Source of the DNA: Deltaproteobacteria bacterium | GTDB lineage: Bacteria; UBA10199; GCA-002796325; JACPFF01 | Assembly (NCBI GenBank): GCA_016183065.1 | Contig: JACPFF010000006.1 | Location: forward strand, 295,578-359,577 | Direction: 5' to 3' | DNA: 64,000 bases | Part shown: positions 2,260-36,909 of the stretch, piece by piece | How the letters are laid out: each line of letters begins with the position of its first letter | Position numbering within the stretch: position 1 is the first letter of the stretch | Notes under the pieces: generated by a model | What the model was told of the DNA's origin: nothing | What the model saw: only the letters and a program-made list of their open reading frames with translations | The model's database searches: none | Translations under genes and position numbers: made by a program

Positions 2260-3267
2260 ATGGGCACATGGTTTCGCACATGGGTCGGACAACGGGTATT
2301 GATCGCGTGGTGTGGCTGCGGACTGATCGCCTGCGCGACTATTACAGGGGCTCACGTCGCCCCCTCCACCGGCAAAGCCGGTGGAGCCTCCCCCTCTCGC
2401 GCGCGGTGCGCGCTGGGGAACTTCCTCGTCCACCCGCTGCGCGGGTGCCCGGACTCGGTCGTCGCCACTGCCCCCTCCACCGGCAAAGCCGGGTCAAGGC
2501 CCAGCTCTGCTGGGCCGCGAAGCAGAGTCGAAGACTGTGCGGAGTGTGATGGAGCCTCCCCCTCTCGCGCGCGGTGCGCGCTGGGGAACGGCTCCCACGG
2601 GGTTTGCGTCCCCTCCAGCGGTGTAGCCTCCCCCTCAGCGCCGCGGAGCGGCTTGGCAAAGACACCGGTGGCGGATCGTGCGTCACCGACATTGTGGGAA
2701 GAGGCCGCGTCCTATGCCGACAGTGGCGAGAGCGATCGCCCGCGCAGGGAACGACTCGCCGCGATTCGCGCAGGACGACAGGTTGCCGAGCGCTGTGTGG
2801 CGCAACATCCCACGATGGCGGCATGCTATTACTATCGCGCGGTCTTGACCGGTCTCCACTATCAACTCACGGTGATCGGCTACCAAAAGGGGCTGGCGCG
2901 CATGCTCGCCGATTGTCAGCGGGTGGTGACGTTGGAGCCGGCGTTTGCCGAGGCCGGGGCGTACCGCATCATGGGGCAGATCTATACGCAGATTCCGGAG
3001 ACCGCCTTTCGCCCCGGGAGTCTCACGCGGGATCTCGACCGGGCCATCGGCTATCTGCAACAGGCGGTGGCATTGGCACCGGAGGCCTTTGAAAATCATC
3101 TGGCCTTGTGCGAGGCACAGGTTGCGGCCGCTGCCTGGCAGGATGGGGCCAGGAGTTGTGCCATGGCCGCGCGCCTCGTCCGCCACAAACGGGGAGCAGC
3201 GCAATACGCCGAGTGGCGTGAGGCACTGCGCGTCTTGAAGAAACGCCTTGCGAAGCGGAATCAGTGA
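2260..3267 (+). CDS. TPR-type lipoprotein (TRAP TatT-like) carrying an in-frame repeat element
   Basis: 335 residues. The N-terminus is a lipoprotein signal: a hydrophobic stretch ending L22-I23-A24-C25. Residues of about 27-135 are encoded entirely by a dispersed hairpin element (see the entry at 2339), giving a Ser/Ala/Pro/Gly/Arg-rich, low-complexity stretch. From about residue 137 a genuine helical-repeat domain begins (LWEEAASYA, CYYYRAVLTGL, AYRIMGQIYTQIP, AIGYLQQAVALAPEAFENHLALCEAQVAA). It resembles the TPR-like TRAP transporter TatT family, although no TRAP permease is nearby. If the insert is removed, lipobox and domain are separated by only a few residues. Whether the fused protein is made, or the gene is being lost, cannot be told from sequence. 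Confidence 0.7.
   Translation: MGTWFRTWVGQRVLIAWCGCGLIACATITGAHVAPSTGKAGGASPSRARCALGNFLVHPLRGCPDSVVATAPSTGKAGSRPSSAGPRSRVEDCAECDGASPSRARCALGNGSHGVCVPSSGVASPSAPRSGLAKTPVADRASPTLWEEAASYADSGESDRPRRERLAAIRAGRQVAERCVAQHPTMAACYYYRAVLTGLHYQLTVIGYQKGLARMLADCQRVVTLEPAFAEAGAYRIMGQIYTQIPETAFRPGSLTRDLDRAIGYLQQAVALAPEAFENHLALCEAQVAAAAWQDGARSCAMAARLVRHKRGAAQYAEWREALRVLKKRLAKRNQ
2339..2664 (+). repeat. Hairpin-rich dispersed element, copy 1 (inside lipoprotein gene)
   Basis: The left end is CTATTACAGGGGCTCACGTCG. Modules in order: stem CTCCACCGGC/loop AAA/GCCGGTGGAG (2364-2386); a CGCGCGC-type stem; CACCCGC/TGC/GCGGGTG (2431-2447); and CCCGGACTCGGTCGTCGCC. A second copy of the first stem follows and is interrupted by a foreign palindromic stretch around GGCCCAGCTCTGCTGGGCC. 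After another CGCGCGC stem comes a terminal GCCGCGGAGCGGC module. It is the longest copy in the window, about 326 bp, and has no stop codon in the lipoprotein frame. It resembles Rickettsia palindromic elements in position, not in sequence. Confidence 0.85.
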
Positions 3268-3298: not shown

Positions 3299-3715
3299 AT
3301 GGCGAGTCTGAATAAGGCAATGATCCTCGGCAACCTTGGTGACAACCCGGAGGTTCGATCGACCCCCAATGGACAGACGGTGGCAACGCTCCGCATCGCC
3401 ACGAATGAGCGGTGGACCGATAAAGACGGACAGGCCCAGGAGCGAACCGAGTGGCACCGTGTCGTCGTCTGGGGGCGCCAGGCGGAGCAATGCGGGACCT
3501 ATCTCTCAAAAGGGCGGCAGGTTTTTGTCGAGGGGCGCATCCAGACGCGGGAATGGACCGACAAAGAAGGCCATCGTCGGTTTACCACTGAAGTGATTGC
3601 ACAGCGGATCCAGTTTCTCGGCAATCGCGCGGGGGGGAGTGGCAATCCCGCAGCAGATGGCGCGCCGGTACCAAGTCCCATGGGGCCGGCCGACGAGGAA
3701 GACGTCCCTTTTTGA
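3299..3715 (+). CDS. ssb: Single-stranded DNA-binding protein
   Basis: 138 residues. The N-terminal OB fold opens with LNKAMILGNLGDNPEVR and contains WHRVVVWGRQAEQC and GRQVFVEGRIQTREW. A short Gly/Pro linker then leads to the acidic tip DEEDVPF, the protein-interaction tail that recruits replication and repair enzymes. Length and tail are typical of a homotetrameric bacterial SSB. A strong ribosome-binding site (AAAAGGAG, 3283-3290) precedes the ATG. It is convergent with the DUF3187 gene, with 4 bp between the ends, and has no rpsF/rpsR neighbours, so it is a stand-alone ssb. Confidence 0.97.
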   Translation: MASLNKAMILGNLGDNPEVRSTPNGQTVATLRIATNERWTDKDGQAQERTEWHRVVVWGRQAEQCGTYLSKGRQVFVEGRIQTREWTDKEGHRRFTTEVIAQRIQFLGNRAGGSGNPAADGAPVPSPMGPADEEDVPF

Positions 3716-4742: not shown

Positions 4743-4758
4743 GGGAGCCCGGTTTCGT

Positions 4759-4946
4759 CTATTACAGGGGCTCGCGTACCCTGCGGCTCCGCCTCCGGGT
4801 ACTTCCTCGTCCACCCGCTTCGCGGGTGCCCGGACTCGGTCGTCGCCACTGCCCCCCCAACGGGCAAAGCCCGTTGGGTCCCCCCCTCTCGCGCGCGGGT
4901 GCGCGCTGGGGGACTTCCTCGTCCACCCGCTGCGCGGGACACCCCT
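4759..4946 (+). repeat. Hairpin-rich dispersed element, copy 2
   Basis: The left end is CTATTACAGGGGCTCGCG. Modules: GTACCC...GGGTAC (4776-4802, containing TGCGGCTCCGCC), CACCCGC/TTC/GCGGGTG (4812-4828), CCCAACGGGC/AAA/GCCCGTTGGG (4856-4878), a CGCGCGC stem, and a second partial CACCCGC/TGC/GCGGG module. The element ends at the stop codon of manC on one side and 16 bp from the start of the DUF3187 gene on the other. It fills essentially the whole 205 bp between them and lies antisense to their transcription. Confidence 0.85.
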
Positions 4947-4947
4947 G

Positions 4948-5829
4948 TTATGCATATTGTTCCAGATAGGGTGTGACGTCGGCATTGACCTGTAACCCTT
5001 CCTCCGTCACCAGGCGATGCACACTCTCCCATGAGCCGATATCGTTCCAGCCGCATTCAACCGGGATCGTGGCCACCCGTTCCGAGTGCTCCATGAGGCC
5101 GTAGTCGATAGAAACGGGGGCTGCTGTGGCAAAAAACGCCTCGGGGGTCGGCGCCATCTTCACGGCGCGATACATCTCGGGCAAATATTGCGCCATCTCC
5201 GCGAGCAGCCGTCGTGCGGACCAGATAAACATGCCGCTATTCCAGTAGAAATGACCACTCGCCAGATAGGCGATCGCGCGTTCTGGTGGTGGTTTTTCCA
5301 CAAAGCGTTTCACGAGAAACGCCCGGGCCGAGAGCGGTTCGCCTTGCTCAATGTAGCCGTATTCTGTTGCCGGTCGGTCGGGCTTGATCCCGAGGGTGAG
5401 GAGGAGGTCATCGCGCTGGGCCATGGCCTCGGCGTGGGCAATGGCGTCCATGAAGGGGGTCGGCTGTAAAATCAGGTGGTCGGCCGGTAGCACGATCATG
5501 ATGGCTTTGGGATCGCGTTGATAGAGACGATATGCGGCCAGCGCAATGGCCGGGGCCGTATTTTTCTTGCACGGTTCGGCGAGGATATTCTCCGGGGGTA
5601 ATGCCGGGAGATGCACGTGGCTGAGCGTCACGTAGCGGTGGTTCGTGGTGAGCCAGATCCGGTCCATCGGAATCACATCGGCAAACCGGGCCACGGTGTC
5701 CTGGAGGAGGCTGCGTGTGCCAAAGAGGCGCAAAAATTGCTTGGGATGTTCCGGCGTTGAGAGCGGTGCAAACCGTCTTCCTTCCCCGCCGGCCAACAGG
5801 ACAACAGACGTATGCGGACCGAGCTTCAT
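4948..5829 (-). CDS. manC: Mannose-1-phosphate guanylyltransferase, apparently C-terminally shortened
   Basis: 293 residues. It makes GDP-mannose from mannose-1-phosphate and GTP for polysaccharide synthesis. Visible features are the nucleotidyltransferase signature LLAGGEGRRFAPLS (12-25), PKQFLRLFG, AEPCKKNTAPAIALAA, VLPADHLI, FVEKP and YFWNSGMF-like FYWNSGMFIW, and VECGWNDIGSWES. Single-domain enzymes usually continue roughly 60-70 residues past GW.DIGSW with small beta strands. Here the protein stops 28 residues later, at a TAA that touches repeat copy 2, so truncation by the element is plausible. It follows purN by 31 bp on the same strand. Sugar specificity (mannose) is inferred from overall motif similarity. 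Confidence 0.82.
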   Translation of the reverse strand: MKLGPHTSVVLLAGGEGRRFAPLSTPEHPKQFLRLFGTRSLLQDTVARFADVIPMDRIWLTTNHRYVTLSHVHLPALPPENILAEPCKKNTAPAIALAAYRLYQRDPKAIMIVLPADHLILQPTPFMDAIAHAEAMAQRDDLLLTLGIKPDRPATEYGYIEQGEPLSARAFLVKRFVEKPPPERAIAYLASGHFYWNSGMFIWSARRLLAEMAQYLPEMYRAVKMAPTPEAFFATAAPVSIDYGLMEHSERVATIPVECGWNDIGSWESVHRLVTEEGLQVNADVTPYLEQYA

Positions 5830-7624: not shown

Positions 7625-7829
7625 CTATTTACAGGGGCTCGCGTACCCTGCGGCTCCGCCTCCGGGTACTTCCTCGTCCACCCGCTTCGCGGGTCCCCGG
7701 ACTCGGTCGTCGCCACACCCCCCTCCACCGGCAAAGCCGGTGGAGCCTCCCCCTCACGCTCGCCGTGCTCGCTGGATCGCTTCCCACGGGCGACACGAGC
7801 TGCCGAGGACCACGCGTTTGCCCGTGGGA
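7625..7829 (+). repeat. Hairpin-rich dispersed element, copy 3
   Basis: The left end is CTATTTACAGGGGCTCGCG, with one extra T relative to other copies. Modules: GTACCC...GGGTAC, CACCCGC/TTC/GCGGGT, CCGGACTCGGTCGTCGCC, CTCCACCGGC/AAA/GCCGGTGGAG, and a CACGCTCGCCGTGCTCGCTGG variant of the CGCG stem. It ends with a longer inverted repeat whose arms are TCCCACGGGC and GCCCGTGGGA (about 7782-7829). The first half of that last module recurs in copy 11 (TTCCCACGGGCGAC, with CCGCCGAGG just after). It sits between the divergent purM and histidine kinase genes. Confidence 0.83.
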
Positions 7830-9201: not shown

Positions 9202-10587
9202 ATGCAGGAGACGATCCTCATAGTAGATGATGAAGTGGCCATTCGCCGGGCATTGGAACGGTTGCTGACCGATGACGGATATCGTCTCCTCACCGCGAGC
9301 AATGCCGACGAGGCATTGCAGCATGTGGCCCGCGAGCCGATCCAGTGCGCCCTCGTCGATCTTGTCCTGCCGGGACGGAGCGGCATCGAGCTGGTCCGCT
9401 TGCTGCGTGCGCAGATGCCAGACAGCGTGTCGATCGTCATGACCGGATTCGGGACCATCGCCAGTGCGGTCGATGCTATGAAGGCCGGGGCGTTTCACTA
9501 TCTCACGAAACCGTTTGAACTCGACGATATCCGGCAGCTCGTCCAGACGGCACTCGACCACCAGCACCTCCGTGTCGAAAATCGCGAGCTGAAGCGGGCC
9601 GTGCAGACCCGCTATCAATTTGCCAATATTATCGGGCATTCGGACGCCATGCACGGGGTCTTTCGCCTGATTGAAAAGGTCGCAGCCACCGACAGCACGG
9701 TCCTTCTCCTCGGGGAATCGGGGACCGGCAAGGAACTGGTGGCGCGCGCGGTCCATTGTCACAGTCACCGTGCCCAGCATCCCCTCGTCACGGTCAATTG
9801 TGCCGCCATTCCGGATGATCTCCTGGAGTCGGAGCTGTTCGGTCACGTGAAAGGGGCCTTTACGAGCGCGTCGTCGACGCAAGTCGGCAAATTTGTGGCC
9901 GCGCATGGTGGGACGATCTTTCTCGACGAAATCGCCGACATGAGTCCCAAGCTGCAGGTCAAACTGCTCCGCGTCATCCAGGAGCGACGCGTGGAACCGC
10001 TCGGCTCCACACAATCGCAGGAGATTGATGTGCGGATCATCGCCGCCACGAACCATGATCTGGAGTTGGCCATTCAGGAGCGGCGGTTCCGCGAGGACCT
10101 CTACTATCGCCTCAATGTGATTCCGGTCAAACTGCCGCCCCTGCGGGACCGTCGCGATGACATCGCGTTTTTGGCGCAACATTTTCTTGCGCGGTTCAAT
10201 GCGGACAATGGGCGGCAGGTGGAGGGGTTTGCTCCCGAGGTGATCGTCTATTTGACGCAGTACGAATGGCCCGGGAACGTGCGGGAGCTGGAGAACCTGA
10301 TCGAGCGACTCGTCGTGATCAAGGGGCATGGGATCATTGTGCCGGAAGATCTCCCCGCACATATGCTGGAAGGGAGTGTCTCGTTCCAGTCACCCGCCCT
10401 GCATATCCCCGATACCGGCATCTGCTTCAAGGCCGCGGTGACCGAGTTCGAAAATGCCCTGATTTTGCAGGCGCTCGCCAAGACGGGTGGCAACAAGAAC
10501 CGCGCGGCGGGTCTTCTGCAACTGAATCGGACGACGTTGGTGGAAAAAATCAAGAAGAAGCAGCTGGAACGACACGTGGCGGAATAA
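9202..10587 (+). CDS. Sigma-54-dependent response regulator 1 (NtrC family)
   Basis: 461 residues: receiver domain (LIVDDE acidic pair, phospho-acceptor D53, K in YLTKPFE), AAA+ sigma-54 activator (Walker A GESGTGKE, Walker B FLDEIADM, R-finger region REDLYYRLN) and a Fis-type helix-turn-helix (GGNKNRAAGLLQLNRTTLVEKI). It should activate sigma-54 RNA polymerase after phosphorylation by the kinase just upstream. Oddity: the sigma-54-contacting loop reads GAFTSA instead of GAFTGA. The glycine-to-serine change is uncommon; activity may be altered but is not excluded. The start at 9202 follows GGGAGG. Confidence 0.92.
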   Translation: MQETILIVDDEVAIRRALERLLTDDGYRLLTASNADEALQHVAREPIQCALVDLVLPGRSGIELVRLLRAQMPDSVSIVMTGFGTIASAVDAMKAGAFHYLTKPFELDDIRQLVQTALDHQHLRVENRELKRAVQTRYQFANIIGHSDAMHGVFRLIEKVAATDSTVLLLGESGTGKELVARAVHCHSHRAQHPLVTVNCAAIPDDLLESELFGHVKGAFTSASSTQVGKFVAAHGGTIFLDEIADMSPKLQVKLLRVIQERRVEPLGSTQSQEIDVRIIAATNHDLELAIQERRFREDLYYRLNVIPVKLPPLRDRRDDIAFLAQHFLARFNADNGRQVEGFAPEVIVYLTQYEWPGNVRELENLIERLVVIKGHGIIVPEDLPAHMLEGSVSFQSPALHIPDTGICFKAAVTEFENALILQALAKTGGNKNRAAGLLQLNRTTLVEKIKKKQLERHVAE

Positions 10588-10609
10588 TGAATCGTATGGG
10601 AGGGTGCTC

Positions 10610-12040
10610 ATGTACAAAAATACGAATCTCCTGATTGTGGACGACGATGACGCGCTGGTCAAAGTCTTTGAACGCGTGGCGCGTGATGAAGGCCTGACGG
10701 TTGCCGTGGCCCGGTCGGGGACGGAGGCCATCGAGGTCCTCAACCGCCAGGTGATCGAGGCGGCGGTCATTGATATCAACCTGCCTGGATACAGCGGCAT
10801 GCAGCTCCTCGAGTATATCAAGCAGAACCAGTTTCCCACGGAGGTGATTATCATCACCGGGGTGGGGACCGTGGAAACCGCAGTCCGCGCGATCAAGATT
10901 GGGGCGTATGATTATCTGACCAAACCCTTCGACGACGTGACCAAAGTCGTGATCATCATCAATAAGGCGCTGGAAAAATTCCGTCTCATGCAACGGATCC
11001 GGGTGCTGGAGCGCAAAGGGGAGGAGACCTTTGCGTATGAAGAGATCGTGGGGAAGAGTCACAAGATGCGCGACATTTTTTCGACGATCGATAGCGTGGC
11101 GGGGACAACCTCGACCGTGTTGCTCCTGGGGGAATCGGGGACGGGGAAGGAACTAGTGGCACGTGCGGTGCATCGGCGGTCCAAACGGGTGGACAAGCCG
11201 TTCGTCGTCATCAACTGTGCCGCGCTCTCGGAGAGTTTGCTCGAAAGCGAGTTGTTCGGGCACGTGCGGGGATCTTTTACCGGGGCGATCGCCGATAAAA
11301 TGGGGCTCTTTCAGGAGGCCGACGGCGGGACCATTTTTCTCGATGAAATTGCCGAAATTCCTTCCAGCACGCAGGTGAAATTGTTGCGGGTGTTGCAGGA
11401 GGGGGAAGTGCGCCCCGTCGGTGGGGCACAAAACCGGACGATCGACGTCCGCCTCATTGCCGCGACCAATCAGGATCTGGCAGAGGCCGTGACTGAGGGG
11501 CGCTTCCGGGAGGATCTTTACTACCGGCTCAATGTGATTCAACTCTCCCTGCCGCCGCTGCGGGACCGCCAGGAAGATATCCCCCTCTTGGCGTATCACT
11601 TCCTCCAAAAATATGCGAAGAAGCTGGAAAAAGATGTGACCAAGATCGCCATCGAGACCCTGCAGATCCTGCAAAACTATCAATGGGTCGGGAATGTGCG
11701 GGAGCTCGAGAACGTGATGGAACGTGCCGTCGTGCTCGTGCAAGGCGATACCATCACCGTCAGGGATCTGCCGCCTCGTGTGTTGGGCGAGGGATTTTAT
11801 CTCCCGGAGGAACCGACCTCCTCGGATCTGTCGCGCTTTACCTATCAGGAGGCCAAAGAACGGTCGCTCTGGGCCTTTAATCGGGCCTATCTCTCGAATC
11901 TCCTCCGACAGACGCAGGGAAATCTCTCCAATGCCGCACAGCGGGCGGGGATGGATCGGAGCAATTTCAAGAAAATCGTGAAAAAATTCAACATCGACTT
12001 GGGCGAATTTCGCAAAAAATCGAACGTGAGTGAGGTCTAA
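10610..12040 (+). CDS. Sigma-54-dependent response regulator 2 (NtrC family)
   Basis: 476 residues with the same three-domain plan. The receiver has an acidic run D11-D14, D55 in VIDINLPG, and K in DYLTKPFDD. The AAA+ domain has GESGTGKE, the sigma-54 loop GSFTGA (a tolerated variant), FLDEIAEI and REDLYYRLN. The C-terminal HTH is GNLSNAAQRAGMDRSNFKKI, similar to the longer Fis-like ends of ZraR/AtoC-type proteins. ATG 10610 follows GGGAGG; GTG 10604 is an alternative. It overlaps the next regulator by one base (TAATG), so the three activators are translationally linked. Confidence 0.92.
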   Translation: MYKNTNLLIVDDDDALVKVFERVARDEGLTVAVARSGTEAIEVLNRQVIEAAVIDINLPGYSGMQLLEYIKQNQFPTEVIIITGVGTVETAVRAIKIGAYDYLTKPFDDVTKVVIIINKALEKFRLMQRIRVLERKGEETFAYEEIVGKSHKMRDIFSTIDSVAGTTSTVLLLGESGTGKELVARAVHRRSKRVDKPFVVINCAALSESLLESELFGHVRGSFTGAIADKMGLFQEADGGTIFLDEIAEIPSSTQVKLLRVLQEGEVRPVGGAQNRTIDVRLIAATNQDLAEAVTEGRFREDLYYRLNVIQLSLPPLRDRQEDIPLLAYHFLQKYAKKLEKDVTKIAIETLQILQNYQWVGNVRELENVMERAVVLVQGDTITVRDLPPRVLGEGFYLPEEPTSSDLSRFTYQEAKERSLWAFNRAYLSNLLRQTQGNLSNAAQRAGMDRSNFKKIVKKFNIDLGEFRKKSNVSEV

Positions 12041-13419
12041 TGGCATCGCGACTCCTCTGTATTCAAGACGAAGGTGCGGACACACTGGCCGTTCATGCCC
12101 TGTTGGGACAGGGGGGATGGACGGTAAAGACAGCCGGGCCACACGATTACGAGACCCTGCTCCGGTTGGATGTCCCGGACTGTGTGGTGATTCTTGTCCA
12201 ACAGCGTGAGGTGAATGTCCTGCAGATGCTGGAGGCCATCCACGACATCGATGAACATCTCCCGGTGATCATCGTCCTGGTGCAGCCGGGGGTCCTGCAG
12301 GACGTCGTGCAATTCATGAAGGCCGGTGCGCACGATGTCGTCGTCTGGCCGACCGAAACGCCGCATTTCTTGCGTATGGTCGAACATGCGATCCATCTCT
12401 ATCACCTGACCAAGCGGGTGTTCTTGTTGGAAAATCAGGTGGGGGGGTGGCGCGGACGTTTTGACGAGCTGATTGGCCAGGGGGCCAAGATGCAGGAAGT
12501 GTTTCAGATGATTCACACGGTCGCGTCCAGTAATGCCACCGTGTTGATTACGGGAGAATCGGGGACGGGGAAGGAATTGGTGGCACGGGCCATCCACCGG
12601 CGGAGTCAGCGCGGGAAGAACCCGTTCATGGATCTCAACTGCGGGGCCATTCCGCGCGAGCTCCTCGAGAATGAGCTGTTCGGTCATGAGCGGGGGGCCT
12701 TTACGGGGGCCGAGCGGCGCTATTTGGGGTGTTGCGAACGTGCCGACGGCGGAACCCTTTTTCTGGACGAAATCTGCGAGATGGAACCGACCCTGCAGGT
12801 GAAAATTTTGCGATTGTTGCAGGAGCGGACCTATACGCGGGTCGGCGGGACGGAGCGCCTCTCGGCCGATCTCCGTTTCATTGCGGCAACCAACCGCAAC
12901 ATCCACGAAGAGGTTGAAAAGGGACGATTCCGGGAGGATCTCTACTACCGGCTCAATGTGGTGCCAATTCATTTGCCGGCGCTGCGCGATCGACCGGAAG
13001 ATATCCCGATCCTGGCGCGGTGGTTTCTGGAGCGCTTTGCCCAGAAACTGGAAAAGCCCTTCATCGAGTTCGCGCCCGATGTCTTGGAGCTTCTGGTCAG
13101 CTATCAATGGCCGGGCAACGTCCGCGAACTCGAAAACGTCATTGAGCGGATGGTCGTACTCAACAATGACACGCGCGTCCGGATGAAGCATCTGCCGCCG
13201 CATATTCGCAAGGCGCAACGGCGCGGGGATCGTCTCCGTCATCCGGCACAGGTCGCGGTCGACGCCCAGTCGATCTTGCCGCTCGATCTCGTCGAAAAAT
13301 ATGCTATCGAGTCGGCGCTGGAGAAATGTGTGGGGAATGTGAGCGAGGCCGCAAAACGGCTCAAGATCGGTCAGGCCACGCTCTACCGGAAGATCCGGCA
13401 ATACGGTCTACGGAATTAG
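12040..13419 (+). CDS. Sigma-54 activator 3 with degenerate (pseudo-) receiver domain
   Basis: 459 residues. The receiver fold is retained, but the active site is not: the acidic pair is QDE (9-11), the phospho-acceptor position is Leu/Val (VVILVQQREVN, about 52-53) and the conserved Lys is Trp in DVVVWPTE. Phosphorylation is therefore unlikely. The AAA+ domain is intact (GESGTGKE, GAFTGA, FLDEICEM, REDLYYRLN), as is the Fis-like HTH (GNVSEAAKRLKIGQATLYRKI). Regulation by ligand, partner protein or hetero-oligomers with the two regulators upstream is possible (inference). The stop codon touches repeat copy 4. Confidence 0.9.
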   Translation: MASRLLCIQDEGADTLAVHALLGQGGWTVKTAGPHDYETLLRLDVPDCVVILVQQREVNVLQMLEAIHDIDEHLPVIIVLVQPGVLQDVVQFMKAGAHDVVVWPTETPHFLRMVEHAIHLYHLTKRVFLLENQVGGWRGRFDELIGQGAKMQEVFQMIHTVASSNATVLITGESGTGKELVARAIHRRSQRGKNPFMDLNCGAIPRELLENELFGHERGAFTGAERRYLGCCERADGGTLFLDEICEMEPTLQVKILRLLQERTYTRVGGTERLSADLRFIAATNRNIHEEVEKGRFREDLYYRLNVVPIHLPALRDRPEDIPILARWFLERFAQKLEKPFIEFAPDVLELLVSYQWPGNVRELENVIERMVVLNNDTRVRMKHLPPHIRKAQRRGDRLRHPAQVAVDAQSILPLDLVEKYAIESALEKCVGNVSEAAKRLKIGQATLYRKIRQYGLRN

Positions 13420-13665
13420 TGGGGCCCCACGACCCAGCGCGCCCCGCGCGCGAGAGGGGGGGACCCAACGGGCTGTGCCCGTTGGGGGGGCGACGACCGA
13501 GTCCGGGGACCCAGCGAAGCTGGGTGGACGAGGAAGTCCCCGGAGGCGGAGCCGCAGGGGACGTGAGCCCCTGTGTGTGCAGTTCCCCAGCGCGCCCCGC
13601 GCGCGAGAGGGGGGGACCCAACGGGCTGTGCCCGTTGGGGGGGCGACGTGAGCCCCTCCAATAGT
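13420..13665 (-). repeat. Hairpin-rich dispersed element, copy 4 (tandem pair)
   Basis: Two copies in the same orientation. The first (13420-13573) begins with the palindrome GTGGGGCCCCAC directly after the TAG of the upstream gene. It carries a CGCG stem, CCCAACGGGC/TGT/GCCCGTTGGG (13464-13486), ACCCAGC/GAA/GCTGGGT (13509-13525) and GTCCCC...GGGGAC (13536-13562), and ends GTGAGCCCCTG. The second, shorter one (about 13581-13665) repeats the CGCG and CCCAACGGGC stems and ends in the canonical GTGAGCCCCTCCAATAG. It separates the sigma-54 activators from the partner-switching genes. Confidence 0.85.
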
Positions 13666-13703
13666 CGGGGATCTTCCGATGGCGTATCGCAACGGAGGGG
13701 ATC

Positions 13704-14042: not shown

Positions 14043-14199
14043 GTGGGGCCCCACGACCCAGCGCGCGAGAGGGGGGGACCCAACGGGCTGTGCCCGTTGG
14101 GGGGGCAGTGGCGACGACCGAGTCCGGGGACCCAGCGAAGCTGGGTGGACGAGGAAGTCCCCGGAGGCGGAGCCGCAGGGGACGTGAGCCCCTCCAATA
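14043..14199 (-). repeat. Hairpin-rich dispersed element, copy 5
   Basis: Same orientation as copy 4. It starts at the first base after the STAS stop codon with GTGGGGCCCCACGACCCAGCG, then CCCAACGGGC/TGT/GCCCGTTGGG, CCGAGTCCGGGG, ACCCAGC/GAA/GCTGGGT and GTCCCC...GGGGAC, ending GTGAGCCCCTCCAATA. The CGCGCGC module is shortened relative to copy 4. It ends 10 bp before the ATG of the RsbW-like gene, so that gene's ribosome-binding region (AAAGGAACCG) borders the element end. Confidence 0.85.
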
Positions 14200-18175: not shown

Positions 18176-18346
18176 CGGGGGCAGTGGCGACGACCGAGTC
18201 CTGGCCCCCGCCAGCGCGCACCGCGCGCGAGAGGGGGGGCAGTGGCGACGACCGAGTCCTGGCCCCCGCCAGCGCGCACCGCGCGCGAGAGGGGGGGACC
18301 CAACGGGCTTTGCCCGTTGGGGGGGCGACGTGAGCCCCTGTAATAG
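18176..18346 (-). repeat. Hairpin-rich dispersed element, copy 6, with 58-bp internal duplication
   Basis: The canonical end GTGAGCCCCTGTAATAG is at 18330-18346. Inward lies CCCAACGGGC/TTT/GCCCGTTGGG, then a CGCGCGC stem followed by GCCCCC and CGGTCGTCGCC-type modules. A unit beginning GCAGTGGCGACGACCGAGTC occurs twice (from 18181 and 18239, period 58 bp), identical by eye. The duplicated unit contains one CGCGCGC hairpin plus the CGACGACCGAGTC module. It lies in the leader between the yqaA-like gene and the hypothetical gene, in the transcribed sense of both. Confidence 0.85.
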
Positions 18347-18359
18347 TGGCACGCAGATC

Positions 18360-22074: not shown

Positions 22075-22117
22075 GGACACCGCAATAAACGTCACCCCGA
22101 CAAAAAGCCGGGGGCCA

Positions 22118-22193
22118 CTATTGGAGGGCTCACGTCGTCCCCCAACGGGCAAAGCCCGTTGGGTCCCCCCCCTCGCGCGCGCGGTGCGCGCTG
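22118..22193 (+). repeat. Hairpin-rich dispersed element, copy 7 (short form)
   Basis: Left end CTATTGGAGGGCTCACGTCG, one G shorter than the consensus, then CCCAACGGGC/AAA/GCCCGTTGGG and a CGCGCGCGGTGCGCGCTGG stem, where it stops. It has only two hairpin modules. The right end runs straight into the first of two 22-bp direct repeats (22194). It lies 43 bp downstream of hemA. Confidence 0.83.
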
Positions 22194-22347
22194 GAAACTC
22201 CCGGGTACGTCATACGCTGCGCAACACCTTGAGACAACTGGGGATTTCAGGTGTGCATGGGGACTCCCAGCGGGGGACACGGACGCGCCGTGGCTGACCA
22301 CCGACGAAACTCACGAAACTCTCGAGAAACTCCCGGGTACGGCATAC
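22194..22347. repeat. 22-bp direct repeat pair (132 bp apart) beside copy 7
   Basis: GAAACTCCCGGGTACGTCAT (plus AC) at 22194-22215 recurs at 22326-22347 with one mismatch (G for T). The left copy begins exactly where repeat copy 7 ends; the right copy begins the only gene-like segment of this stretch. The 110 bp between contains CACGAAACTCTCGAGAAACT-like short internal repeats and no open frame of note. A local duplication, or a duplication caused by insertion of the element, would explain it. Confidence 0.6.
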
Positions 22348-31327: not shown

Positions 31328-31407
31328 GACCAAGCCGCACTGCGGCGTTGAAGGGGAGGCTCCAGCGGCTTTGCCGCTGGAGGGGGCGACGTGAGCCCCT
31401 CCAATAG
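31328..31407 (-). repeat. Hairpin-rich dispersed element, copy 8 (short form)
   Basis: Canonical end GTGAGCCCCTCCAATAG at 31391-31407. Inward: CTCCAGCGGC/TTT/GCCGCTGGAG (31360-31382), then GAAGGGGAGG and a GCCGC/ACT/GCGGC terminal hairpin next to GACCAA. It starts 13 bp after the kinase stop codon. The stem arm CCAGCGGC differs from other copies at several positions, each compensated on the other arm. Confidence 0.85.
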
Positions 31408-31485
31408 TGGAATTGCGGCTAGACACGGTGTGGCATGGGTGTTAGAGACGGCCCGTGGTGGGTGTGTATGAGAAGGAGCGGACCC

Positions 31486-31749: not shown

Positions 31750-31917
31750 TGGGGCCCCACGGGCTCACGCCTGTGGCACCCTGGGGGGAGGCTTCGCCTG
31801 AGCACGACACCCCCCGGACTAACGTCCGGGGCCCCACGACCCAGCCGCACCGCGGCGTTGAAGGGGAGGCTCCAGCGGCTTTGCCGCTGGAGGGGGCGAC
31901 GTAAGCCCCTCCAATAG
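31750..31917 (-). repeat. Hairpin-rich dispersed element, copy 9, with extra outer module
   Basis: Canonical end GTAAGCCCCTCCAATAG at 31901-31917, then CTCCAGCGGC/TTT/GCCGCTGGAG, a GCCGC/ACC/GCGGC-type hairpin with CGTTGAAGG, and CCCCACGACCCAGC. Further out is a block unique to this copy: GTGGGGCCCCAC (31749-31760), CACGGGCTCACGCCTGTGG, AGGCTTCGCCT and CCCCGGACTAACGTCCGGGG-like palindromes. It follows the 79-residue ORF by about 25 bp and precedes the symporter gene by about 70 bp. Confidence 0.82.
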
Positions 31918-31986
31918 TGGTCTCAATGCCGTCCGGGTATGGACGAGTCGTGACCGCGACCCAGCAAGGTGTGGAGAGGAGGGACT

Positions 31987-34532: not shown

Positions 34533-35971
34533 AACGCCACGAGCAGTGTTGCGAGGAGCCAGCCACCCCCAATAGCGAGAATGGCCGGGATGGGATACCC
34601 GCCGTACGGCGTCTGGATCTCTTCATATACCCCGACGCCGAGGAGAATGGTCATCATGGTCGGTGTGAAGATCGTCAGGCCGAACGCCACGGGCCAACCG
34701 ACCGGATGACTCGAGTGTGCATTGACATAGGCAATAAAGGTCTCTTTCCCCAGGACGCGCGTGACGAGCAGACATTGGAGCAGGGCTACGGCAATGACGC
34801 CGAACTGGTTGATGAAGTGATCGACGAGATCGAGCCAGTAGAGGCCACTGCCGGTTGTAAAGAGAATGCCGAGCAGAAAACCGACGAGGCACGTCCCGTC
34901 GACGATCCGTTTGCGCGACCAGGAGAACTTGTCTTGCGCGGAGGCGATAAAGGCTTCGCCCATTGCAATGCTCGACGTAATCCCGGCAATGAGGAGTGCA
35001 ATGAAGAAGAGAAAGGCAAAAAAGTGTTGCCCACCGGGTAATTGGTTGATCGCCTCAGGATAGGCAACAAAACTGAGGCCGATGCTTTGACTGACGACCT
35101 CACTCACCGGTTTCCCCGCACGCAAGGCCATGAAGCCGAGGAGAGAAAAGACGGCAAAGGCGGCAATCACTTCCACCGCGCTGTTGGCAATGCCGACGAT
35201 GATGGCGTTGGCCTTGAGGTTGGTCTTCTGGGGGAGATAGCTGCCATACGCGATCATCATCCCGTAGCCGAGTGAGAGGCTGAAAAAAATGTGTCCAAAG
35301 GCATTGCGCCAGATGGTCGGATCCCAGAGGCGCGAGAAATCGGGGGTGAGATAGGCCTTGATCCCCAGGCTTGCACCCGGCAGGGTGAGGCTCCAACCGA
35401 CGAGGAAGAGGATCAGCACGAAGAGGAGCGGCATGCAGATCCGGCCAGCCAGTTCAATGCCGCGCGTAATGCCGCGGCGCAGGATGTACCAGTTGATGGC
35501 CCAGATGCACGCCAGCCCGATGAAAATGCGCGGGTTGATGGAGCCAAAGGAAAAGGGACCATCGGTTTTTTGGAGAAATTGCTCAAAGAAGAAGGTGTTC
35601 GGGTCGCTCCCCCACGCCAGGTTGGCCCCAAAGGCGAGGTAGTTGAGGCACCATGAAAGGACCACATTGTAGTAACAGGCGATGGCAAACGCCGTGAAGA
35701 TGACGGCCCACCAGCCAAGCCACTCCCACCCGGGGTGGACGCGTGCAAAGGCAAGTGGTGCAGACCCCTGCTCCCGGTGGCCGAGTCCGTGTTCCATGAT
35801 CATCAGTGGGAGGCCGACCAGGAGGAGGGCGATGAAGTAGGGGATGAAAAATGTCCCACCACCACTCGTGTAGGCGACATACGGAAATCGCCAGATATTC
35901 CCGAGGCCCACTGCGCACCCAATGGCGGCACACAAAAACCCGGTCCGTGTTTTCCACTGTTCGCGTCCCAC
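34472..35971 (-). CDS. Sodium-dependent transporter, SNF (LeuT-type) family
   Basis: 499 residues, about 12 helices. The N-terminal signature GCAVGLGNIWRFPYVAY is the sodium/substrate site of neurotransmitter:sodium symporters. Later blocks: GLPLMIMEHGLGHREQGS, FSLSLGYGMMIAYGSYLP, and LLIAGITSSIAMGEAF with the TM8 sodium ligands. Probably imports an amino acid or related compound. Tail-to-tail overlap with dus of 61 bp. Upstream (35972-36210, about 240 bp, divergent from maf) holds element copy 10 and no clear promoter. Confidence 0.92.
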   Translation of the reverse strand: MGREQWKTRTGFLCAAIGCAVGLGNIWRFPYVAYTSGGGTFFIPYFIALLLVGLPLMIMEHGLGHREQGSAPLAFARVHPGWEWLGWWAVIFTAFAIACYYNVVLSWCLNYLAFGANLAWGSDPNTFFFEQFLQKTDGPFSFGSINPRIFIGLACIWAINWYILRRGITRGIELAGRICMPLLFVLILFLVGWSLTLPGASLGIKAYLTPDFSRLWDPTIWRNAFGHIFFSLSLGYGMMIAYGSYLPQKTNLKANAIIVGIANSAVEVIAAFAVFSLLGFMALRAGKPVSEVVSQSIGLSFVAYPEAINQLPGGQHFFAFLFFIALLIAGITSSIAMGEAFIASAQDKFSWSRKRIVDGTCLVGFLLGILFTTGSGLYWLDLVDHFINQFGVIAVALLQCLLVTRVLGKETFIAYVNAHSSHPVGWPVAFGLTIFTPTMMTILLGVGVYEEIQTPYGGYPIPAILAIGGGWLLATLLVAFYFSRRPWQTTRLDTVHAAS

Positions 35972-36210: not shown

Positions 36211-36840
36211 ATGCAATTGATCTTGGCATCGGGATCGCCACGACGGGCAATGCTCCTCGCACAATTGGGGCTTCCATTTCAGGTTGTTGTGCCGACCATT
36301 GAGGAGATTGTTCCCGACGGGATGATGCCGAGGGAGGCGGCAGCGCATTTGGCCATGGCCAAGGCGCACGCGGTGGCGAGTGGCCATGAGGATGCACTGG
36401 TGATCGGGAGTGATACGATGGTGGTCCTGCAGGAAGAGATCCTTGGAAAGCCAGCCTCGGATCAGGAGGCCGCGGTCATGCTGACCCGGTTGCAGGGGCG
36501 CACGCACACCGTGATGACCGCCGTGGTCGTCTGTCACGCGGTATCGGCCCGGTCGTGGTCCCATGTTGACTGTGCGGAGGTCACCATGAAGCGACTCACG
36601 ACCACGGAGATCGCGGCTTATGTGGCGACGGGCGAGTCGCGCGACAAGGCCGGCGCGTATGCCGCGCAGGGCGAGGGCGCGCGTCTGATTGCGGCCGTGT
36701 CGGGGGATTTTTTTGCAGTCGTTGGACTTCCTGTGCGCGCCACCATCTCCTTGCTGGAGCAGGCCGGGTTGTCGGTGACCGCGAATGTCGACGCCATCTA
36801 TTCCAGGGGCTCACGTCGCCCCCTCCATCAGCGAAGCTGA
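36211..36840 (+). CDS. maf: Maf/YceF nucleotide pyrophosphatase with element-encoded C-terminus
   Basis: 209 residues. Maf proteins hydrolyse non-canonical or modified nucleoside triphosphates. Motifs: LILASGSPRRAMLL, SDTMVVLQEEILGKP, ML.RLQGRTHTVMTAVVV-type (LTRLQGRTHTVMTAV), and ESRDKAGAYAAQGEGA. The native domain ends near TISLLEQAGLSVTANVDA. The last 14 residues, IYSRGSRRPLHQRS, and the TGA at 36838-36840 are read from repeat copy 11, the stop lying inside its hairpin. The enzyme core seems intact. Flanked by element copies 10 and 11 in the same orientation. Confidence 0.9.
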   Translation: MQLILASGSPRRAMLLAQLGLPFQVVVPTIEEIVPDGMMPREAAAHLAMAKAHAVASGHEDALVIGSDTMVVLQEEILGKPASDQEAAVMLTRLQGRTHTVMTAVVVCHAVSARSWSHVDCAEVTMKRLTTTEIAAYVATGESRDKAGAYAAQGEGARLIAAVSGDFFAVVGLPVRATISLLEQAGLSVTANVDAIYSRGSRRPLHQRS

Positions 36841-36909
36841 TGGAGCCTCCCCCTCTCGCGCGCTGTGCGCGCTGGGGAGATTCCCACGGGCGACGGGAGC
36901 CGCCGAGGG
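36798..36909 (+). repeat. Hairpin-rich dispersed element, copy 11 (overlaps end of maf)
   Basis: Left end CTATTCCAGGGGCTCACGTC, then CTCCATCAGC/GAA/GCTGATGGAG (36823-36845), a CGCGCGCTGTGCGCGCTGG stem and the outer module TTCCCACGGGCGACGGGAGC with CCGCCGAGG (to about 36909), which matches the outer module of copy 3. The first stem differs from every other copy at several base pairs while remaining perfectly paired. It provides the stop codon of maf. Confidence 0.83.

Follow-up and report, generated by a model that had tools for sequence, protein, structure and literature searches.

The window analysed here is a stretch of 64,000 nucleotides, near the left end of which lies a lipoprotein gene whose start codon is preceded, 8 bases upstream, by the stop of a TrxB-like gene. 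The frame of the lipoprotein gene stays open up to position 3264 across a long insert made of repeated palindromic sequence. The gene, the parts of its insert and its conserved neighbour are as follows.

2260..3267, + strand: lipoprotein gene, 335 amino acids plus stop (ATG at 2260, TGA at 3265-3267)
2260..2334, + strand: signal peptide with lipobox LIAC, from sequence; the codon of Cys25 is 2332-2334
2339..2656, + strand: composite palindromic repeat, read in frame +0 (ITGAHVAPSTGKAGGASPSRARCALG...), with more than 50 copies in its own genome
2347..2364, + strand: core GGGGCTCACGTCGCCCCC, kept across phyla
2365..2385, + strand: hairpin 1, TCCACCGGC-AAA-GCCGGTGGA, from sequence and covariation
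2399..2413, + strand: hairpin 2, GCGCGC-GGT-GCGCGC, from sequence
2427..2447, + strand: module B, CGTC followed by the hairpin CACCCGC-TGC-GCGGGTG, from sequence
2550..2589, + strand: second copy of the hairpin-2 segment, identical to 2382-2421 (repeat family D6)
2622-2661, + strand: third, degenerate copy of the hairpin-2 segment (repeat family D6)
2671..3264, + strand: conserved helical domain 3' of the insert, 27-43% identical to the listed relatives
3299..3715, + strand: SSB gene, conserved neighbour

As originally predicted, the insert follows the lipobox cysteine (C25) in frame and without a stop codon, and the reading frame is unbroken from the ATG to the TGA. The N-terminus reads MGTWFRTWVGQRVLIAWCGCGLIAC|ATITGAHVAPSTGKA..., the junction peptide is LIAC-ATITGAHV, and the insert lies between the cysteine and the first helix of the domain, in front of WEEAASYA. 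Sequence homologous to other copies of the repeat covers positions ~2339-2656 (the right edge is approximate, 2657-2670), or about 106 codons, close to the 109 codons of the original prediction, and frame +0 is the only open frame in this copy. The domain had been taken for a TPR domain; no TPR model matches it, and a Pfam search of the domain gave no match of any kind. In translation, the insert would lengthen the tether that joins the lipid anchor to the folded domain by about 106 residues.

The lipoprotein gene is present in a single copy in its own genome. A first scan of genome contigs with the lipoprotein as query found no relative; among 60 related genomes, 38 have a match. The SSB gene adjoins the lipoprotein gene in 15 of the 20 loci examined, the locus in the window counted, and the same gene is therefore being compared. 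Every orthologue read over its whole length starts with a signal peptide, in many cases with a lipobox-like cysteine at the same place, and the domain begins about 20-30 residues past the cysteine. None of the fully read orthologues carries the extra stretch, not even that of G001 (L043), which alone in the set belongs to the same family; this indicates that the insert was gained in this lineage. The search for orthologues free of the insert, a check named in the original prediction, came out in its favour.

The element is a mosaic in which a left end (CTATTACAGGGGCTCACGT) is followed by the core, hairpin 1, hairpin 2 and module B. Second and third rounds of the same modules, partly deleted, follow in the lipoprotein copy, and module B occurs without hairpin 1 in the inserts of the pyrE and carA genes. 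Elements begin with CTATT.. and end with ..GTGGGGCCCCAC; the left-end motif recurs while the right ends vary. Hairpin 1 covaries, with 88% of positions paired in 26 distinct gapless copies from other genomes as compared to 72% in partner shuffles, and its loop is AAA in 21 of these 26 copies. When translated, frame +0 is rich in Gly, Ala and Ser and carries the motif ..TIxGAHVAP.., frame +1 is rich in Arg and frame +2 in Pro; the frame +0 peptide is probably disordered. No Rfam family matched the element up to E=1 in positions 1-40000 of the window. Elsewhere in the window, at 35355-35427, there is a sub-threshold match to the Fibro-purF RNA (26.7 bits, gathering threshold 60).

DNA searches of the 1.97-Mb metagenome-assembled genome (MAG), which is 88.8% complete, gave 53 matches at E<=0.001, the best of them 96% identical over 263 nt, and peptide searches of the same genome gave more than 100 matches. 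The DNA matches exclude a chance resemblance. The window itself contains these further copies.

4748..4950, + strand: intergenic, near the 5' end of a DUF3187 gene
7626..7800, + strand: intergenic
13423..13667, - strand: intergenic
14043..14199, - strand: intergenic
18177..18350, - strand: intergenic, with a 58-nt tandem duplication
22114..22199, + strand: intergenic
31328..31410, - strand: intergenic
31750..31920, - strand: copy with a tail module bounded by GTGGGGCCCCAC
36790..36890, + strand: copy at the 3' end of the gene called at 36250-36840

The last of these copies provides the gene at 36250-36840, which looks by eye like a Maf/nucleotide-phosphatase, with its last codons and its stop, in another frame. 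Three consecutive ORFs of about 460 amino acids at 9202-13419, with repeats about 1.42 kb apart (families D2 and D7), are apparently tandem paralogues.

The position of the elements relative to genes was surveyed in 700 kb (contigs C15, C24 and C29), with genes called by a codon model and clusters of at least 60 nt, a procedure without frame bias. The midpoint lies outside called genes in 48 of 56 clusters, in sequence of which only 10.7% is intergenic; two of these 48 belong to genes that the model starts too late, namely the lipoprotein gene and Slt. Seven of the 56 elements are inside genes, all on the same strand and in frame +0: the lipoprotein, Slt (a lytic transglycosylase gene with the insert behind the signal peptide, as in the lipoprotein), MurF, a LysM lytic transglycosylase, PyrE, a cupin-like protein and a 426-aa ORF. 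Among 53 elements, frame +0 is open in 48, +1 in 40 and +2 in 46, and the three reverse frames are open in 29, 13 and 26, so that seven out of seven cases in frame +0 has a probability of about 8e-4 if the forward frames are considered and about 4e-5 if all six are. All interruptions with coding flanks that a scan of the 700 kb found were in frame; the frame-shifted pairs that it listed lay between different genes.

The expectation that the same element would occur inside other genes was borne out genome-wide, where forward-frame searches gave 14 fusions in frame +0 and 2 in the second frame (+1). Frame +0 peptides added squalene/phytoene synthase, CarA, AcpS, a 3309-aa PKS-like ORF, an ABC ATPase (N-terminal insert) and two ORFs that match no family. 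From the other forward frames came only two internal cases, one in an alpha/beta-hydrolase-like ORF and one in a CinA-like ORF. Among these 16, the ABC, HK-like, C23 and PKS-like cases are known from open reading frames alone. Because the number of queries per frame was unequal genome-wide, more weight can be placed on the 700-kb count. The other frames were considered as coding and rejected, since +1 gives only the two internal cases and some C-terminal ones and all ORFs from +2 are C-terminal or spurious. Any long open frame running antisense to a real gene was set aside as spurious.

Comparison of the interrupted enzymes with PDB sequences by phmmer aligns both halves of each and leaves the insert unaligned. 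The breaks are as follows (residues on either side, query against structure).

MurF: 145|205 against 122|126 of 1gg4_A
CarA: 218|265 against 176|194 of 1cs0_B
AcpS: 78|164 against 66|73 of 3hqj_A
PyrE: 83|142 against 99|121 of 4paw_A
Squalene/phytoene synthase: 126|203 against 63|92 of 8is6_A

The cell-wall enzyme MurF (junction peptide EMIATIAGAHVAPSSGK) is single in this genome and matches TIGR01143 in two pieces, model positions 1-99 and 102-418, with 399.5 bits together. Of 44 relatives, 39 have a TIGR01143 match above the cut-off that is unbroken across model positions 99|102, and in 35 of those 39 it covers the whole model, the remaining relatives being fragmentary. CarA is also a single copy and scores far above the cut-off; its length was dropped as a proof by itself because it varies among the relatives. 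The idea that AcpS is the sole PPTase was rejected, as the genome has other PF01648 matches. The fused proteins are probably made and presumably work.

DNA matches to the element are present in 24 of the 60 relatives. A pattern scan of GTDB species genomes with the core pattern GGGGCTCNCGTCGCCCCCTCC returned at least 106 stretches, and among the matches listed the exact core occurs in Nitrospirae, Nitrospiria, Syntrophus, Syntrophobacterales, Syntrophorhabdus, Deltaproteobacteria and Bdellovibrionales. The exact core is found in MAGs of several phyla (Nitrospirota, Desulfobacterota, UBA10199-type and others); one short acidobacterial contig is also among the core matches listed, and single core matches in MAGs could reflect contamination. 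One core-carrying record, MGRG01000007 (RIFCSPHIGHO2_01_FULL_43_49), presumably corresponds to UBA10199 in GTDB. No printed trace of the core was found in the literature.

Some of the copies in other genomes also keep the frame of a gene that they interrupt, but are read there in reverse (..EGEAPxALPxEGATRAPVI..). The proteins concerned are LeuRS (leuS_bact, 996 bits), RecB (882 bits), a TIGR03960 radical-SAM protein, an RF-1/ArfB-like protein, a GltD-like protein and three in which the insert lies at the edge of the family match: AmtB (directly behind the signal peptide), a UvrD/PD-(D/E)XK protein and a Proton_antipo_M protein. The original prediction had reasoned that a linker behind a lipid anchor is where an insert would do least harm. 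This agrees with the lipoprotein, the Slt-like gene and AmtB, but the copies in MurF, PyrE and AcpS lie in folded domains. The interrupted RecB gene (L146, 1583-5467) and UvrD/PD-(D/E)XK helicase-nuclease gene (L151, 3468-6425) echo the preference for repair genes that has been reported for intragenic REPs (PMC3733652). At four loci of Syntrophorhabdus and Syntrophobacterales MAGs (L120, L131, L167 and L104), a small hairpin, CACCCGC..GCGGGTACCCGG-like, is nested in the first element. From this nested second hairpin, modules seem to insert into one another.

Sequence from the left flank recurs to the right of the element at four loci, over 44 (L096), 27 (L142), 22 (L111) and 21 nt (L136), and no flanking duplication of such size was found in mismatched controls. 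Clear flanking duplications are confined to a few copies, and CCACCATTGCAGG is present on both sides of the murF insert. These repeats suggest target duplications, possibly long and variable, and are too thin to name a mechanism, although it seems plausible that the element moves by transposition. At L096 (~4644) and L142 (~1754, reverse strand), where the 44- and 27-nt duplications of neighbouring sequence flank the elements, these adjoin by eye the end of a ribosomal-protein gene and the 3' end of a tRNA. A Y1/RAYT transposase was considered as the mobilising enzyme and rejected, since PF01797 is found alike in carriers and non-carriers among the 60 relatives; the genome itself has two PF01797 genes, one of them a fragment abutting a copy of the element. 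At L174 (2294-2500), the 5' part of a broken Y1 (IS200-like) transposase gene passes directly into an element cluster. No transposase tied to the element was found.

The most serious alternative for the lipoprotein is that the element lies 5' of the true coding region and that translation starts at TTG 2653 or GTG 2668, the ORF with the lipobox being fortuitous or a dead remnant. Both start codons stand right behind the element and the codon-usage gene finder does begin the gene at 2653, a late start explained by element codons that look non-coding; moreover, many N-terminal REPs have turned out to be really extragenic, a warning given in the literature (PMC3733652). The original prediction had named such a downstream start as its refutation. 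The two codons are possible starts, but their use would discard a signal peptide and lipobox that recur in many orthologues and that the window keeps in frame, and it would leave the internal cases of MurF, PyrE and CarA unexplained, so we regard this alternative as unlikely. A stretch so rich in GC and so low in complexity might also be an old native linker that resembles a repeat by composition only. Since another locus matches it at 96% over 263 nt, more than 50 copies exist and the orthologues have no counterpart, this is scarcely conceivable.

Two further alternatives concern the interrupted genes as a whole. They could be dead or dying, with the frame kept by chance; insertion within enzyme domains and the incompleteness of the MAG (88.8%) speak for this. 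Yet MurF is the sole copy and its halves reach 399.5 bits together, CarA is far above its cut-off, the lipoprotein domain is intact and the 700 kb hold no out-of-frame interruption, which makes general decay quite improbable. Alternatively, the element could be removed or skipped after transcription, by RNA excision or by ribosomes bypassing the hairpins, to leave normal proteins. Strong hairpins and inserts in enzyme domains would favour such a route, but removal needs no open insert in phase, whereas every internal case is in frame, stop-free and strongly biased to one frame, and no Rfam family matches in positions 1-40000; we consider it very improbable.

The reading that we prefer, with considerable confidence, is that of a non-autonomous palindromic repeat which usually resides between genes and is tolerated within them only as an in-frame linker. 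A modular repeat of this type would spread by copying or transposition through some enzyme, and most insertions would land between genes or be purged elsewhere. Intragenic copies would survive only where the frame is kept and the added peptide is harmless, and the Gly/Ala/Ser-rich frame +0 would be retained more often than the Arg-rich +1 or the Pro-rich +2. What lets genes tolerate this family may be the near absence of stops from its sense strand, together with a frame that encodes a linker-like peptide. It is possible, though we put this forward as a tentative extension, that the repeat is common to several phyla and tuned so that one frame (one reverse frame elsewhere) is a benign linker, that it colonises single-copy core genes and supplies them with linkers and loops, and that it moves leaving long and variable flanking duplications.

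In-frame palindromic repeats have so far been mainly a curiosity of Rickettsia, with scattered REP cases elsewhere. The family described here, of which we found no earlier description, interrupts about 16 genes in a single genome, and several of these encode core enzymes. It offers a natural experiment in insertion tolerance, marking sites where MurF, CarA, PyrE, LeuRS and RecB accept 20-100 extra residues, and bears on the question whether new protein segments commonly arise from mobile repeats. A gene caller may shorten genes of this kind, and it did so with the lipoprotein here.

Several known systems share features with the element. Enterobacterial RU/ERIC sequences are likewise small mobile repeats with open frames joined in frame to ORFs (PMC2759123), but the fusions quoted are mostly small or putative loci, whereas core enzymes are interrupted internally here. 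MITEs carry terminal inverted repeats and a target site duplication; in the element, the left-end motif recurs, right ends vary, and flanking duplications of 21-44 nt are seen in a few loci. GTAG-tagged REPs, which RAYTs mobilise, are palindromic, mosaic (BIME-like), mostly intergenic and at times intragenic, as are the present elements; in contrast, no GTAG end was recognised here, no RAYT gene flanked by copies was found and the occurrence of Y1 transposase genes does not follow that of the element.

Di Nocera et al. (2013, PMC3733652) report CGTC-tagged and GTAG-tagged REPs of which some lie within genes, with recB and other repair genes prominent among them. The CGTC-tagged type resembles our element in having CGTC beside a short hairpin, in being mostly intergenic with some intragenic copies (recB-type) and in having no known transposase (PMC3733652). 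In the element, CGTC touches the stem in module B (2427-2430) and is 6 nt away from it in module A (2355-2358). However, CGTC-tagged REPs are units of 20-40 nt, as compared to the long mosaics seen here, and are defined by a stem of 8-9 bp starting with AT, a loop of 4-5 nt and a CCA-type tail (PMC3733652); the stems here start with TCC or CAC, the loop is 3 nt and there is no CCA tail.

The Rickettsia palindromic elements (RPEs), to which the original prediction likened the insert, measure about 150 bp and interrupt Rickettsia genes without loss of frame, and in R. conorii almost half of them are found within ORFs (PMC10969869); RPE-4 and RPE-6 fall in the CGTC type (PMC3733652). Range and architecture do not agree: the hosts here are sediment and groundwater lineages of several phyla, with no Rickettsia among the matches listed in the core pattern scan, the core is different and the modules form mosaics, inserts reach about 106 residues, and about one in eight copies in this genome is intragenic as compared to nearly half in R. 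conorii. The likeness holds for the way of working, since in both systems palindromic repeats are inserted in frame in unrelated genes, contribute a recurrent peptide and leave proteins that seem functional (PMC10969869, PMC3733652). It is in this respect, without implying kinship, that the element appears to resemble the RPEs.
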